DNA from: a virus
Length of the DNA stretch: 27,240 nucleotides
Reading direction: 5' to 3' (one strand)
Virus record (IMG/VR): IMGVR_UViG_3300030108_002354
Span: 1-27,240 of that record
Shown here: one piece after another, positions 13,096 to 26,338 of the stretch
Layout of the letters: each line of letters begins with the position of its first letter
Position numbering within the stretch: the stretch's first letter is position 1
The notes under the pieces: model-generated
What the model was told of the DNA's origin: nothing
The model's database searches: none
Seen by the model: only the letters and a program-made list of their open reading frames with translations
Position numbers and translations under genes: made by a program

Positions 13096-13576
13096 TATTT
13101 TTACCCTTCTTTGCTATCTTGTCAATATGCGGACCTTGTTCCGCTTCTAACAACTCACCAGTGTTTGGATTGATATATCCACCAGCCTGTGCTGGCATAG
13201 GCATTGGTTGTTGCTGTTGTTGATATTGTTGGTATGGAATCATGTTAGGTGGTACGGGTTGTCCCACATGACCATCGCGGTTCATGTCCCAACCTGTTCT
13301 GTTTTCCATATAGTTCATAGCATTACTGAACATTCCTTGATTTTGATAACCCGAAGGTTTTTTCTTTCTCTCTGCAAATTCATCTAAATCTTGCGAATCT
13401 GCAATCGTGGAGAGTATGGTATATGTGAAAGCACCACTTACCGAACCAAACCAAAGGGCGTCATTGTATGCCATGTTGCCCACATACATTAAAGTGAATG
13501 CGTTAGCTATGAAAACTAACAAGGCACTCAACCTGTTGTATGATTGTTTTATTTTGTGCTTAATCGTTTCGTCCAT
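13088..13576 (-). CDS. Two-helix membrane protein with Gln/Met/Pro tail and EF-hand-like loop
   Basis: The 162-residue protein has two hydrophobic helices at about 16-34 and 40-58, then a soluble tail. In the tail, DMNRDGHVG near residue 96-104 has the D-x-N-x-D-G-x-V spacing of a calcium-binding loop but lacks the final acidic residue. It is followed by YQQYQQQQQPMPMPAQAGG and a charged end (HIDKIAKKGKNSG). Gln/Met/Pro tracts of the same kind occur in the products of 10599-11357 and 11455-11817. GAGG lies before the ATG at 13576. The gene immediately precedes and overlaps the MscS-like gene, so I infer that the two proteins work together in the membrane. Confidence 0.6.
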   Translation of the reverse strand: MDETIKHKIKQSYNRLSALLVFIANAFTLMYVGNMAYNDALWFGSVSGAFTYTILSTIADSQDLDEFAERKKKPSGYQNQGMFSNAMNYMENRTGWDMNRDGHVGQPVPPNMIPYQQYQQQQQPMPMPAQAGGYINPNTGELLEAEQGPHIDKIAKKGKNSG

Positions 13577-13901
13577 TCTCGATTTCCTCTTTTGCTCTTA
13601 GCGTCACAAACCGCGCAGTGTAATAATTCCACGGCCTGTTTGCTTTTGTCTTTATACCTGCATCGTTTAAATACTTTGCTATACCGCCATATGTATAGCC
13701 ATCTTCTCTTAATTGTACCATTTTTTTACAAACCAACCACTCTACTTTTGTAGCTCCAAACCGTATAGAGCGATAAGGTCGCTTTCTAGCCGTTTTAACG
13801 GCACTGAAATTACTATCTGATGAAGAACCCATGCCGTACCATATCGTGCCTTTAAACGCCCTTTGCGGGCCTTTCATACCTATTTCTTCCTTAGGTCTCA
13901 T
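13560..13901 (-). CDS. Recombinase-type helix-turn-helix protein, no catalytic domain
   Basis: In this 113-residue protein the C-terminal half (YTYGGIAKYLNDAGIKTKAN, then RPWNYYTARFV) matches the helix-turn-helix that follows the catalytic domain in large serine recombinases ('G-x-S-x-x-x-I-A-x-x-L-N-x-x-G-I-x-T-x-x-G-x-x-W'). The N-terminal half is basic and shows no serine recombinase active site, so it is probably a DNA-binding regulator or structural accessory rather than an enzyme. It sits inside the late operon with an ATGA overlap to the giant adhesin gene and a 17-base overlap with the membrane gene. It is a candidate for a late transcription factor, but nothing links it directly to a site. 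Confidence 0.5.
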   Translation of the reverse strand: MRPKEEIGMKGPQRAFKGTIWYGMGSSSDSNFSAVKTARKRPYRSIRFGATKVEWLVCKKMVQLREDGYTYGGIAKYLNDAGIKTKANRPWNYYTARFVTLRAKEEIENGRND

Positions 13902-19896: not shown

Positions 19897-21024
19897 TTAA
19901 GCGTTCAAGTTTCTGACACTACCTTGCGTATTAAACTTATATACAATTAATTCACCAGCAGTGATGAATGCGTACTCTCTACTTAGTTTTTGTCTGATAG
20001 CCAAGTTGGTATTATCAACATAAGTAGTTGGTGCTGCAATTCTCATTGCTAAGTTTTCCATATCCAACAAGTGTATTCTGGAAGTTGTATCTTTTTCTAC
20101 GTGTTGTGAAATGAAAATTGGTATTCCATCATAAGAACCAACACGTGAATCGAAATTCAAACCTTTTTCTCCAGCTACACCGTTTAGGTTTCCACCGCCA
20201 CCTTGTGCTAAATCATATCTGAAATTTGCACCAGACAATGTTTGCATTAATTGTTTTAGGTTCTGATATGTATCGTGACCTGTTAACATAATTAAGTTTG
20301 CATAGTCAACTCCGTTTTCTAATGCTTCTTGAATTAGGTCATCTAAGTCAGATAATGCCAAAGCTCCGTGACCTGGACTTCCGGGAGTTGCTAAAACACA
20401 GTTTCCTTCTGCCCATGCGTTTGCGCTTGTACCGTCTCTTGTAATGTCATACATATCTAAGTCAGTTGCTAAGTTTGCAATGTGAGGTCTTGCTGCTACA
20501 TCAGTAGTTACTCTGTCCAAAGATTCAAAGTTGTTACCTGCAACAGTGTCAACAGTAGCTAATAGCATATCATCAATAGCGAAAGCGTGTGCTTCACCTT
20601 GTTCTCTTCTCATGAAAGCTGCTAGATTGCCTAGACCGTCATCAGATTCTGCTAAAATTTCTGCTTTAGAAGTCATTCTCCATGGAGTTACTACTTCTTT
20701 TAGAGTTGCAGTTACTTCAGTAATCTCTGGGTGGTCACTTAGTGGGAAATCTCCACCTTCGCCTACACCAGCGGTTGTCTCGTGTCGTGCGGTTAGTACC
20801 CTCCAACCAGATTGGGTCCATGCTTCTTTCTTCAAAAGTTTAAAAACTTCTGACTTAGTATTTAGCTGATTGAAAACTTTAGCTCCAAACATAGTGTTGA
20901 AAGCTCCGTCCATTTCAGACACCTTGATGTCATCAGCCGACTTACTAATTCCGTACCTCTTGGATATTCCAAGTGTTCCGCCATAATAGGCGTTTACATA
21001 TTCTTCAAAACTTATTCCTGCCAT
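19897..21024 (-). CDS. Major capsid protein, HK97-fold type
   Basis: At 375 residues with mixed alpha-beta character, this protein follows protease and scaffold genes, the standard position of an HK97-type capsid protein. Features fitting the fold are an N-terminal helical arm (1-60), a stretch with EVTATLKEVVTPWRMTSKAE that resembles the P-domain spine entry, and a C-terminal 'GIPIFISQHVEKD ... LLDMENLAMRIAAPTTYVD' region like the A-domain end, where many families read 'G-x-P-v-x-x-s'. AGGAGGT, formed by the last codons of the scaffold gene, is a strong ribosome binding site nine bases before the ATG, as expected for the most abundant virion protein. I see no sign of a fused protease or scaffold. 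Confidence 0.75.
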   Translation of the reverse strand: MAGISFEEYVNAYYGGTLGISKRYGISKSADDIKVSEMDGAFNTMFGAKVFNQLNTKSEVFKLLKKEAWTQSGWRVLTARHETTAGVGEGGDFPLSDHPEITEVTATLKEVVTPWRMTSKAEILAESDDGLGNLAAFMRREQGEAHAFAIDDMLLATVDTVAGNNFESLDRVTTDVAARPHIANLATDLDMYDITRDGTSANAWAEGNCVLATPGSPGHGALALSDLDDLIQEALENGVDYANLIMLTGHDTYQNLKQLMQTLSGANFRYDLAQGGGGNLNGVAGEKGLNFDSRVGSYDGIPIFISQHVEKDTTSRIHLLDMENLAMRIAAPTTYVDNTNLAIRQKLSREYAFITAGELIVYKFNTQGSVRNLNA

Positions 21025-21026
21025 AT

Positions 21027-21566
21027 TTAGTTACCTCCTGTTAATTCATCAAGTTCTTCCCAAGACTTAGATACGTTCATCCAGTCAATAGTTTTCTCTT
21101 CTGTAGGAGCTTCAGTGGCTGGTGCTGGGGTAGCTTTTCTACCTGTGTATACACCAATACCGTGTTTCTTTAATGTTGTGACGGCTTTGTAGAGTTCATC
21201 GATGTCGTCCTTTTTCTTAGGCTTCTTGTCGTCCATCATTTTTTCTTCTTCTTCTTCCTCTTCTTCCTCGTCTTCTTTATCTTCGTGTTCGGCTTTCTCT
21301 TCTTCGCCTTTTTCATGGTCCATTTTTTCATCTTTGTGGTCCATTTTCTTATCCTCATGGTCCATTTTTTCTTCTTCTTTTTCACTTAAGTAATTAATTA
21401 CTTCTTTAAGTTTCATAAGAGTAGCTTCCATATCTTTTAGGACTGCTTCTTCCTTATCGACTTCTACTGGCTCATCTAATCCAGCGACAATTTCTACATC
21501 CTCTGATTCAACGATTTCTTCGTCGACAGACTTTGCGTGGTCACCGCTACAAGTGCAATCTTTCAT
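21027..21566 (-). CDS. Acidic scaffold-like protein
   Basis: This 179-residue protein is extremely rich in Glu, Asp and Lys. Its middle carries repeated (K/E)-K-M-D-H-(E/K) units (about 68-90) and a run of Glu, flanked by a helical region (EAVLKDMEATLMKLKEVINY). The C-terminal 60 residues (DDIDELYKAVTTLKKHGIGV; WEELDELTGG) are better ordered and could bind the capsid protein. Charged, helical, low-complexity proteins between protease and capsid genes are usually scaffolds removed by the protease. Two cysteines near the start (CTC) are odd. The gene has its own TATA box and the ATG is leaderless, so with the capsid gene it forms a separately boosted unit. Confidence 0.6.
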   Translation of the reverse strand: MKDCTCSGDHAKSVDEEIVESEDVEIVAGLDEPVEVDKEEAVLKDMEATLMKLKEVINYLSEKEEEKMDHEDKKMDHKDEKMDHEKGEEEKAEHEDKEDEEEEEEEEEKMMDDKKPKKKDDIDELYKAVTTLKKHGIGVYTGRKATPAPATEAPTEEKTIDWMNVSKSWEELDELTGGN

Positions 21567-21587
21567 ATTTGTTTATGTACAAAAGGG

Positions 21588-21595
21588 TATATAAG
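21588..21595 (-). promoter_or_regulatory. TATA box of the scaffold/capsid unit
   Basis: On the minus strand the box reads CTTATATA, in the wider TTACTTATATAC context. Its centre is 25-26 bases before the ATG at 21566, the leaderless spacing. It is the same element as at 23700-23707 and lies 7 bases after the TTTCCGGAAA palindrome. Confidence 0.7.
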
Positions 21596-21605
21596 TAACT
21601 GAATA

Positions 21606-21615
21606 TTTCCGGAAA
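21606..21615. promoter_or_regulatory. TTTCCGGAAA palindrome, candidate activator site (copy 1)
   Basis: A perfect 10-base palindrome, 7 bases upstream of the extended TATA element (21587-21598) of the scaffold/capsid promoter. It abuts the stop codon of the protease gene on the non-coding side. The identical palindrome and spacing recur before the protease gene. Confidence 0.6.
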
Positions 21616-23679
21616 CTACTTCTTTCCTTTACCGCTCATTAGCCTTGCAATGTTTTTAGGAGTCAACATTCTACCCCTTGCTCTACGCCAATAAGTTGGA
21701 TTTGAAAACATGGCCCTTCTAAACTTTAATCCACTCCTATTTTGAATTTTGCCTGGGTCTTTACCTCCCATTCCTGGTGCGTGTTTGTAAGGTGGGTCTG
21801 GTTCTTTGTCTCCTCCACTATCTTGGTGACCAAACTTACCATAGTCATACCAAAGACCTCCGCAAAACCTCTCAGGGTTTTCTGCCATTGGCACTCCGTA
21901 ATATGTTTTTAAATTTCTTGCATTTTGTACACAATTTTTCCATTGTAAAGAGCTAGGATTCTTACCAAATCTAGTAGCACTTCTTCTTTTTCTACCTTTA
22001 GGTTTTTTTTTAGGTGCTTTTATTATATCTATTATCTCATCTAAATGTTCATTGCTTTTCGCAAGTATATCTGACACATTTTTTGCACTCCACATTTTAC
22101 AAGACCAGTATCTTGCTTTATGTTTTGGGCCTGGATTGTCACAGTTGTGTCTGGCTCTAAAGTTTCTACGCCTTTCTGGGTCATCGCGCTTTATATCTAG
22201 CTTAGGGTCGCCAAACTTAACCTGCACAATGTTGCCCTTATCATTCTTTACATATACACCAAACTTCTTGTTTTCACCAGAAAGCCTACGTGGTTTGTTT
22301 AATTCTACTTTCTTACCCTGATACTCTGCTTTTACAATCCTCTCATCCTTGTGACTTTCTAATACTGAAAACTCAAAGAACTCTACAGCCCCATCATGCG
22401 GTTCGTAATCGCCCTCCATCAATACTGGACCATCTGTAGTCTGCATCCAGTGATAACCTTTAGGTGGTTTTACTTTAATTCTTTTGTCTTCTGCTTTTTT
22501 TGTAGACTTGGGATGACCTGCGGGCAATAAGTCGTAATCCGTGGTGTACTTCGGATTTGCGGGCCTACCTGAGCTTAGTAGTTTTAAAAATGCTTTAACA
22601 CGACCTAATGCCCACTGGTCTCGGCTACGAACACTAGGACGATGGCTGGTCGAAAATGCGCCTGCGCCCCTGCGGAACACTGCTTTCAATGCTCCAAGAT
22701 TAGCCTTTTTCCCTTTAGCGTTACCAACTTTCTTGTTGTGCTTATCTCGATAACCTTCTAATGTTTTAATATTTGCTTCACTTAATTTTATTCCACCACG
22801 CTCTCCACTAGCTGTGCCCTTTGGATTTCTAGTACTACCTGTTCTTCTCTCACTTGGTTTCGCAGGTGTCTGTGGATGTCGGCTTTTCTTTTGAGGAACA
22901 CAGTTAGGTGTTTTCTTACCACCCTCATACTTGAATCCTACCATTTCATAGCCGTCCCAACATGGTTTCTTTTTCAATACAGCCAATATCTCATCTAAAT
23001 CTTGATTCATTTTACTAAATCTTCTAGCTTGTATTGCGCGTTCTTGATTTACTGCACCTGCTCTTGTCTTGTGACATCCTAGTAACTTTCTATCCTTTTT
23101 AGCATATAGACAATACTCGCCATTCTTGCGTTCTATTATCTTTTCTACCATGCCTTCTATCTCATCTAGTGTTACTTGCTTTGTCACCTTTACAGGTTCT
23201 TCTGCTTTTGCTGCTGCTACTGCGGTTACAGTAGCCTCTGGGTTAGCAGGCTTGTTACCAACCCATGACACGGACCAAAGAGACAACTCGGAGATGTTGT
23301 TGTGGCAGACGTCTCCTTCGCAAACCTTCTCTTGCTTCTCAGCTTCACCCCTAATAGATGAACCGCCCTTGTCACCGTATATCTGCATCTCTTCCCATAC
23401 TCTATCATGCATAGGAAGCCTGTTGTGTATGCCTACACGTATTTTGACCTTACCGTCTTTTACCTTATATGCAAGAGGTAAGCCCACTGGCATCTCCTCA
23501 TGCTTGTATGAATAAACGCCATATTTCATATAGAAATCCATGGCTTCTTTAATTGTCTCTGTTTTAATTTTATCGTTCTGTTTGTCGACGATAGGCGAGC
23601 TAATATACGTTTCTAAAACTCTGTCATTGTACCAGTCTGGTCGATAGACTTTCCACTTAGTATTATCAGCGTCTGCCAC
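21616..23679 (-). CDS. Prohead protease fused to several small phage domains
   Basis: The 687-residue protein starts at GTG 23679, 24-25 bases after a TATA box. Residues about 10-150 are an XkdF/prohead-type serine protease: LETYISSPIVDKQNDKI start, candidate His60 in YSYKHEEMPVG, Ser107/108 in GGSSIRGEAE, and the usual end ELSLWSVSWVGNKPANPEA. Further small modules follow, each of a kind I recognise from other phages: CLYAKKD...GCHKTRAGAVNQERAI (188-216), PCWDGYEMVGFKYEGGK (239-262), RRGAGAFSTSHRP...WALGRVKAFL (336-365), a YHWMQTTDGPVLMEG box (409-423) and RNFRARHNCD...YWSCKMW (506-530). A basic C-terminus with CV and FCGGLWYDYG ends the protein. Helical LDEI segments (171, 228, 546) separate modules. 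Self-cleavage into internal head peptides is plausible. Confidence 0.7.
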   Translation of the reverse strand: MADADNTKWKVYRPDWYNDRVLETYISSPIVDKQNDKIKTETIKEAMDFYMKYGVYSYKHEEMPVGLPLAYKVKDGKVKIRVGIHNRLPMHDRVWEEMQIYGDKGGSSIRGEAEKQEKVCEGDVCHNNISELSLWSVSWVGNKPANPEATVTAVAAAKAEEPVKVTKQVTLDEIEGMVEKIIERKNGEYCLYAKKDRKLLGCHKTRAGAVNQERAIQARRFSKMNQDLDEILAVLKKKPCWDGYEMVGFKYEGGKKTPNCVPQKKSRHPQTPAKPSERRTGSTRNPKGTASGERGGIKLSEANIKTLEGYRDKHNKKVGNAKGKKANLGALKAVFRRGAGAFSTSHRPSVRSRDQWALGRVKAFLKLLSSGRPANPKYTTDYDLLPAGHPKSTKKAEDKRIKVKPPKGYHWMQTTDGPVLMEGDYEPHDGAVEFFEFSVLESHKDERIVKAEYQGKKVELNKPRRLSGENKKFGVYVKNDKGNIVQVKFGDPKLDIKRDDPERRRNFRARHNCDNPGPKHKARYWSCKMWSAKNVSDILAKSNEHLDEIIDIIKAPKKKPKGRKRRSATRFGKNPSSLQWKNCVQNARNLKTYYGVPMAENPERFCGGLWYDYGKFGHQDSGGDKEPDPPYKHAPGMGGKDPGKIQNRSGLKFRRAMFSNPTYWRRARGRMLTPKNIARLMSGKGKK

Positions 23680-23699: not shown

Positions 23700-23707
23700 T
23701 ATATAAG
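23700..23707 (-). promoter_or_regulatory. TATA box of the protease unit
   Basis: The box reads CTTATATA on the minus strand, in TTACTTATATAC, and is centred 24-25 bases before the GTG at 23679, so a leaderless message is expected. The extended element is identical to that of the scaffold/capsid promoter. Confidence 0.7.
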
Positions 23708-23713
23708 TAAGTA

Positions 23714-24157
23714 TTAATTTCCGGAAACAACTTTTTTAGCTTCCTTAACAACTTCTTTTTCAAGACGCGGTAAATTATTCAACAACGCAGGTCTTATGTA
23801 AGGTTGAGGCGTTGCAAATGGTTGATTCTCAAATACTTTCTTTGCCACTGGAAATGGCAATACACCACCAACTTCCTCCCATGGAGGAAAAGGACTAGGG
23901 CCACCAAATTCTATTATCGCTGCCGCAGGATGCGAAGACGTAAGTAAAAAATTAACATTATTACCTGATGTAGAAACACTGCCTACAATACTATTTTTTA
24001 ACTGACCAGTATCTTCAGGTGCTAACCTTTTTGCATCGTTTTCAGCATCATCCACTATGTTATTACCTGCAGTTTCAAGAATGTCAACCCAAGTATCATT
24101 TTTTTTGTAAAGGTTGATTATTTTAACAAATTGACTAGTGTCCCAAACAATACTCAT
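23714..24157 (-). CDS. HK97 gp10-like head-tail protein
   Basis: The 147-residue protein has the motifs of the HK97 gp10 family: RLAPEDTGQLKNSIVGSVS (the 'AP-x-D-T-G-x-L' motif), then a strand with AAAIIEFGG ('vEfG') and QPYIRPALLNN near the end ('QPf-x-x-PA'). In other phages this family acts in tail completion or head-tail joining. Here it lies between portal and protease, away from the connector genes, which is unusual. ATG at 24157 overlaps the upstream TGA (ATGA). The stop at 23714 lies within the promoter region of the protease, with the TTTCCGGAAA palindrome inside its last codons. Confidence 0.7.
   Translation of the reverse strand: MSIVWDTSQFVKIINLYKKNDTWVDILETAGNNIVDDAENDAKRLAPEDTGQLKNSIVGSVSTSGNNVNFLLTSSHPAAAIIEFGGPSPFPPWEEVGGVLPFPVAKKVFENQPFATPQPYIRPALLNNLPRLEKEVVKEAKKVVSGN
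23718..23727. promoter_or_regulatory. TTTCCGGAAA palindrome, candidate activator site (copy 2)
   Basis: Identical palindrome to that at 21606-21615, again 7 bases upstream of the extended TATA element (23699-23710). Here it is inside the last codons (S-G-N) of the gp10-like gene, while the other copy lies outside coding sequence; conservation is therefore not caused by protein sequence. Confidence 0.6.
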
Positions 24158-25784: not shown

Positions 25785-26160
25785 GTATATCCTCCAATGT
25801 CTTCATTATGTTATTAAGCCTTTCTGTTTTCTGCAGCAAGTCAAGTCGTTTCTTTAATGACTTACTCCACCTGTGACCTGCATCACCGCCCATTTGCTTC
25901 CACATAACATAACCCTTACTCGGATTACGTCTGTCCCCAAAACCTTTGGCTGGTGGGTCTACCTTTTCATGCCTTCTATAATAGGTATCTATCTTTACTG
26001 CTGTATCATATCCTATATCTTTCTGCATACGTAATTTACGGTTTACCATTTTTGTCACCTTACCGCCGCCATACCCATGCATCTGACGTAAATCACGACC
26101 ATCCATCGCTTCTTTCTTTACACCTTTAGGAATCTTGTACCTAGTTCTCTTATCTGCCAT
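25768..26160 (-). CDS. Basic head-linked protein with YYRRHE motif
   Basis: A basic 130-residue protein directly upstream of the portal. The middle has IGYDTAVKIDTYYRRHEKVD and then RNPSKGYVMWKQMGGDAGHR. The arrangement 'A-x-K-I-x-x-Y-x-x-R-H-E-x-V-D ... W-x-x-x-G-G-D-A-G-x-x-W' resembles a small domain I know from marine phage head proteins, where it is often fused to proteases or portals. The C-terminal helix (LLQKTERLNNIMKTLEDIH) resembles the LDEI helices of the protease. Its function is unknown; packaging accessory or head core component would fit. It starts at ATG 26160, overlapping the preceding gene by 11 bases. Confidence 0.55.
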   Translation of the reverse strand: MADKRTRYKIPKGVKKEAMDGRDLRQMHGYGGGKVTKMVNRKLRMQKDIGYDTAVKIDTYYRRHEKVDPPAKGFGDRRNPSKGYVMWKQMGGDAGHRWSKSLKKRLDLLQKTERLNNIMKTLEDIHGMVR

Positions 26161-26299
26161 TATACTCCTTGACGTATTTTCTAAGCACAGGTTCTACCAA
26201 AACTCCAGTCGGAACATTCTCGGCCTTAGCAATCTCTTTCAAACTTTCTTTAGTGTCGTTGCTTATTCCGTAAATTTCCAACCGCGTTCGCTTTTTCAT
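26150..26299 (-). CDS. Ribbon-helix-helix-like small regulator
   Basis: From the ATG at 26299 the protein has 49 residues: a basic strand (KKRTRLEIYGI) followed by two helices (NDTKESLKEIAKAENVP and TGVLVEPVLRKYVKEYNG). That is the ribbon-helix-helix layout of CopG/Arc-type DNA-binding dimers. A longer frame to 26359 overlaps the terminase and is unlikely, because the TATA box at 26331-26338 would lie inside it; with this box the transcript should start near 26309, leaving a leader of about ten bases. It is the first gene after the terminase, so it may control its own unit, including the portal. Confidence 0.6.
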   Translation of the reverse strand: MKKRTRLEIYGISNDTKESLKEIAKAENVPTGVLVEPVLRKYVKEYNGR

Positions 26300-26330
26300 A
26301 AATGGTTGGATGTCATGCATATGCTTTATG

Positions 26331-26338
26331 TATATAAA
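26331..26338 (-). promoter_or_regulatory. TATA box for the regulator/portal unit
   Basis: TTTATATA on the minus strand, the best consensus match in the window, just downstream of the terminase stop. It is centred about 35 bases before the ATG at 26299, so this message would have a short leader rather than none. It lacks the TTTCCGGAAA palindrome. Confidence 0.6.

Follow-up and report, generated by a model that had tools for sequence, protein, structure and literature searches.

Gene-specific activation of transcription is poorly known in archaeal viruses, and a review from 2017 found almost only repressors among the regulators described for them. The virus-encoded ribbon-helix-helix (RHH) proteins SvtR, AvtR, and F55 repress virus promoters; for SvtR the target is a virion gene, and the promoters bound by SvtR and F55 include their own (PMC5569661). 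CdrS of Haloferax volcanii is a small cellular RHH protein with a symmetric motif and many targets that is thought to activate ftsZ1, and several of its sites lie between about -41 and -50 relative to the start (PMC8406309). The cellular regulators TFB-RF1, EarA, and Ptr2, none of them known to be an RHH protein, have sites directly upstream of a weak BRE, and recruitment of TFB or TBP has been proposed for them (PMC5512572). At the virus locus described here, a box upstream of the BRE marks two head-gene promoters and varies together with a small RHH-like virus protein.

Two box-TATA modules at head-gene promoters

The window, which is the whole 27,240-nt stretch of DNA analysed, contains two copies of TTTCCGGAAA and no others (Table 1); dinucleotide shuffles of the window held a mean of 0.03 copies, and none reached two. 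On the minus strand both sites read TTTCCGGAAA-N7-TTACTTATATAC, and at both promoters (P1 and P2) the start codon lies 28-29 nt 3′ of the TATA. An earlier note on this DNA had described a palindrome, spacing, and TATA element that occur twice without a third copy, and the window scan and shuffles confirm this. Judged by the spacing expected in archaea, both transcripts would be leaderless. The leaderless ATG described in the note is that of P2, and the start codon at P1 is GTG. The note's label of a scaffold/capsid promoter likewise suits P2; the gene behind P1 is neither scaffold nor capsid and resembles a prohead protease by its N-terminal motif.

Table 1. Promoter elements and genes of the window (positions 1 to 27,240).
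Feature	Positions	Strand	Details
RHH gene promoter, TTTATATA	26331..26338	-	purine-rich BRE (GAAAAG), box absent
RHH-like protein, 49 aa, proposed box-reading regulator	26150..26299	-	weak profile/structure matches
P1 box TTTCCGGAAA, class A	23718..23727	-	centre 43 nt 5′ of GTG start
P1 TATA region	23700..23710	-	TTACTTATATA on minus strand
Prohead-protease-like fusion (HK97-type), 687 aa, P1-driven, GTG start at 23679	21616..23679	-	assigned from motif (KHEE, SELSLWSVSWV), not from a family match
P2 box TTTCCGGAAA, class A	21606..21615	-	centre 44 nt 5′ of scaffold ATG
P2 TATA region	21588..21598	-	TTACTTATATA on minus strand
Scaffold-like gene, first in P2 operon, ATG at 21566, leaderless by spacing	21027..21566	-	position, gene order
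Major capsid protein (MCP)	19897..21024	-	phrog_24667, E 1.4e-37

The genes are arranged in the order terminase, RHH-like protein, a 130-aa protein, portal, a 78-aa protein, neck protein, P1 with the prohead-protease-like fusion, and P2 with scaffold, MCP, an AT-hook-like protein, and tail genes, where the protease and scaffold are named from motif, position, and gene order. Along this 25-kb minus-strand array, from the terminase to position 2834, TATA promoters at plausible positions are found only at the RHH gene (-39), P1, and P2, so some 18.7 kb of virion genes are probably transcribed from P2. A pair of divergent, box-free TATA promoters at 1496 (-) and 1686 (+), with gene starts about 190 nt apart, probably serves another (early) gene set.

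The box pair is kept in dozens of IMG/VR relatives. Their loci were retrieved through MCP or portal similarity, with no use of the motif for selection, and they carry the same two sites at the same two places. Two near-complete relatives of 35.7 and 37.3 kb, in which both contig ends lie in the same gene or in adjacent ones, have exactly two boxes each, at P1 and P2. In class A, to which the window belongs, the palindrome is 11 nt from TTATA in all reduced P1 (n = 42) and P2 (n = 32) promoters; five P1 rows also hold a nearer chance TTATA, with the same TATA still at 11. The distance from TTATA to the start codon is 27 nt at P1 and 28-29 nt at P2.

By similarity comparison, the haloarchaeal Druskaviridae have relatives of both the MCP and the portal, and published trees place this group among marine archaeal viruses (PMC8651126). 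An archaeal host is thus probable for this virus and for the large family of ocean viruses to which it belongs. Use of the class A box by hosts themselves was considered and set aside: in a scan of 84,980 species no archaeal genome carries the class A form box-N10-YTTATATA, and the 46 genome matches are all bacterial and probably due to chance.

Box versions and the RHH-like protein

Six versions of the box occur in the family, and within one virus both promoters always have the same version (Table 2). A CGRN-N12-TATA register is common to classes A, C, C2, D, E, and F. The box has two-fold symmetry in A and F, while C, C2, and D are non-palindromic and only their central C|G is symmetric. In the 21 nt before the TATA, P1 and P2 share 11-17 matches within a class and 2-11 between classes, and the true pairing of P1 with P2 classes ranks first among 120 permutations of five classes. 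A reading of class D as being without P2 and having MAYKNRPYQYLLTF as its regulator was dropped once a better RHH candidate (MARLELKGI) and a paired D box were found.

Table 2. Box and RHH motifs by class; labels are short motifs picked after sequence inspection.
Class	Box	RHH motif
A, F	WTTCCGGAAA; TTTCCGGACA at P2 of some A	KKRTRLEIYG, KKRERLELYG
C	TATACGGAG	[AE]RFELYG
C2	ACCCGAG	GTRMELWG
D	AAGCCGA[C/T]	ARLELKG
E	TCCGAA	GRTRLELFG
B	around G[GC]CAAAACAGTT	PPHYIFAIS

Since the P1 and P2 boxes stand before non-homologous genes and switch version together, a class-specific trans-acting factor is needed. This bears on the idea that the box is an extension of the core promoter, read by the basal machinery through a TFB or TBP variant with no dedicated factor. 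The invariant distance to the TATA would suit such an arrangement, but six versions that change jointly at two promoters would still call for a class-specific factor, and the remaining TATA promoters in the genome are box-free, which leaves this explanation scarcely credible.

A candidate for the factor is encoded between terminase and portal. This RHH-like protein, 49-59 aa long across the family, falls into seven classes. All 97 distinct RHH+P1 pairs agree in RHH class and box class; they are not independent and represent about six independent switches. The AlphaFold monomer (pLDDT 84) has helices at residues 14-26 and 31-42 preceded by extended residues; the strand itself would form only in a dimer. 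Foldseek matches are mostly RHH proteins (CopG, Arc, StnY, AvtR), these at E 0.4 or worse and all with E > 0.3. The Pfam RHH_1 match (E 0.018, 15.5 bits) is under the gathering cut-off of 20.5, a PHROG Arc-like repressor matches with E 0.0012, the Arc-like phrog_582 is matched by 10 of 14 members, and sequence searches of the PDB gave no clear RHH homologue. Each single score is weak, and the protein is best described as RHH-like. In classes A, C, C2, D, E, and F, strand residues R6 and E8 are invariant and the third outward position is Y, F, W, or K. The DNA-facing R and E are common to these six classes and so do not by themselves pin down the class differences.

The earlier note had named three proteins that might bind the site, of which this one fits. 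The AT-hook-like protein does not, as its gene lies 3′ of the MCP within a block in which A-box and C-box genomes are 98% identical. The 113-aa "HTH" protein (13560-13901) is a fragment of a Recombinase domain; it was found in class A only, and a class D genome with the neighbouring genes lacks it. Another RHH-like protein of these viruses, of 124 aa in class A and encoded upstream of the terminase, was also weighed as the reader. It is present with class-specific sequences in A, C, and C2; however, it has two very different forms within class A (RYLISVG and RYMIQVG, about 40% identical) behind the same box (L161, L164), and classes D, E, F, and B yielded no copy, so that its role as reader is very improbable.

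Gene exchange between classes

In terminase+portal trees every class is a clade, and part of the match between RHH protein and box could thus reflect shared descent. The head genes follow another course. In the protease tree C and C2 are intermixed, with class C as a single clade rejected (p-AU 0.0004), and proteases up to 98.6% identical are found behind different P1 boxes. The MCP tree requires 18 class changes, and MCPs that are 100% identical occur in A and C genomes as well as in C and C2 genomes. A 2.5-kb block that is 98.2% identical between L332 (C) and L012 (C2) begins at the scaffold ATG, and the P2 boxes just upstream differ. On this sequence evidence, the box stays with the RHH gene rather than with the gene it drives. 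Regulatory specificity is thereby maintained while structural genes move between viruses.

Exchanged blocks that include the MCP were seen in two pairs of otherwise divergent viruses, L250/L319 (4.0 kb) and L332/L012 (2.5 kb), both 98% identical. Class F, whose RHH protein is nearest to that of A and whose box is the same, was tried as a case of transfer against the backbone and set aside, as an A+F clade was not rejected (p-AU 0.42).

The head-gene region has further peculiarities. Most classes have a conserved N-terminal Cys-x-Cys in the scaffold protein (21027-21566 and relatives; MTDCTCGG, MSKCTCGD, MSDFCTCG). In class D (L025:8988-9500, L163:13023-13550) P2 is internal to an open frame in which protease and scaffold are fused, and a separate scaffold could be made from this internal promoter, by analogy with the nested lambda C/Nu3 genes. 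In class B (L170:5583-9286, G006) the long protease fusion has as its homologous region a run of many small genes, several of which begin with the near-identical leader MNYN(K/E)AELCK(D/A)CK(M/K)PV.

The clades formed by the classes in terminase and portal would also be expected if a host factor read the box, each class living in a different host with a differing specificity, and if the RHH match reflected shared descent. Exchange of genes between classes suggests shared hosts instead, and the class A form is missing from the archaeal genomes scanned; a host reader is accordingly quite improbable. Action of a virus-encoded, sequence-specific factor on the head-gene promoters, as the earlier note had supposed, is strongly supported by the covariation of box and RHH protein and by the recombinants. 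The RHH protein is the best candidate for the box reader; its binding to the box, its direction of action, and the late timing are inferred.

Direction of regulation and comparison with known systems

The centre of the box, near -44, lies 5′ of the BRE at a fixed distance, with the N12 register in six classes. The BRE of boxed promoters never has the usual AA, and positions 2-3 nt before the TATA are never purine (n = 106), as judged against the general archaeal consensus rather than one from the host. In the same genomes the RHH promoter has a purine-rich BRE, and no box lies within 75 nt upstream of the RHH gene. Its TATA is 39 nt from the ATG, a distance that exceeds those of P1 and P2 by about 10 nt, and CATCCAACCA is strongly conserved before the ATG across class A (26300-26330); from this spacing and conservation the RHH mRNA probably has a short leader. 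The P1 TATA is non-canonical in D, E, and F.

Site geometry and poor BRE together favour activation through recruitment of TFB/TBP. The likely, if not secure, explanation is that TTTCCGGAAA is the operator of the RHH protein, which would activate P1 and P2 through TFB/TBP assembly in a relay from early/middle to late genes. The RHH gene can be expressed first, as its own TATA promoter is box-free with a purine-rich BRE. The ribbon of the RHH dimer, with R6 and E8 facing outward, would then enter the major groove at the box's central C|G. Bound one to two turns upstream of the TATA, the dimer would aid TFB/TBP assembly at the two promoters, switching on the head-protease gene at P1 and the scaffold-capsid-tail operon at P2 as leaderless mRNAs.

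The same protein could instead read the box and repress, keeping head genes off until late, as is thought for SvtR and the tail-fibre gene. Repression is what the known RHH regulators of archaeal viruses do, and RHH dimers are able to spread along DNA toward a TATA. No repressor-type site, in the RHH gene's own promoter or over a TATA or start, was found, however: the two boxes of each genome both lie 5′ of the BRE with exactly the same spacing, and promoters with such poor BREs should need help rather than silencing. Repression is thus considered unlikely.

Activation by the RHH protein leads to a wider proposal, to which we give an even chance: largely orthogonal activator/operator pairs, each an RHH protein with two matched boxes, would gate head genes at BRE-poor promoters. 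Matching boxes would be kept or restored when capsid and protease genes swap between lineages, so that each pair would serve recombination as a compatibility code and the set would amount to a natural table of how RHH proteins recognise DNA. Sequence alone reveals the factor, its two sites, and six natural versions of the operator, which opens the way to in vitro tests without virus culture.

The Druskaviridae (HVTV-1, HCTV-1) and marine archaeal tailed viruses have a homologous MCP (about 30% identity) and portal (PMC8651126), but Druskaviridae genomes are about 103 kb and those of the viruses here about 37 kb. No report of such a promoter system was found for these groups or elsewhere in the literature searched, where TTTCCGGAAA appears only in two unrelated papers. 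The likeness to TFB-RF1, EarA, and Ptr2 concerns only the way of working, with the site directly upstream of a weak BRE, and the candidate here is viral and RHH-like. SvtR, AvtR, and F55 are likewise virus RHH proteins on virus promoters, but the own promoter here is box-free and the geometry is activator-like. CdrS is similar as a small archaeal protein of RHH type, in a symmetric motif such as that of the A and F boxes, and in the position of several sites, whereas the system here is viral, with exactly two targets, a geometry fixed at 12 nt, and a set of operator versions that have co-evolved.
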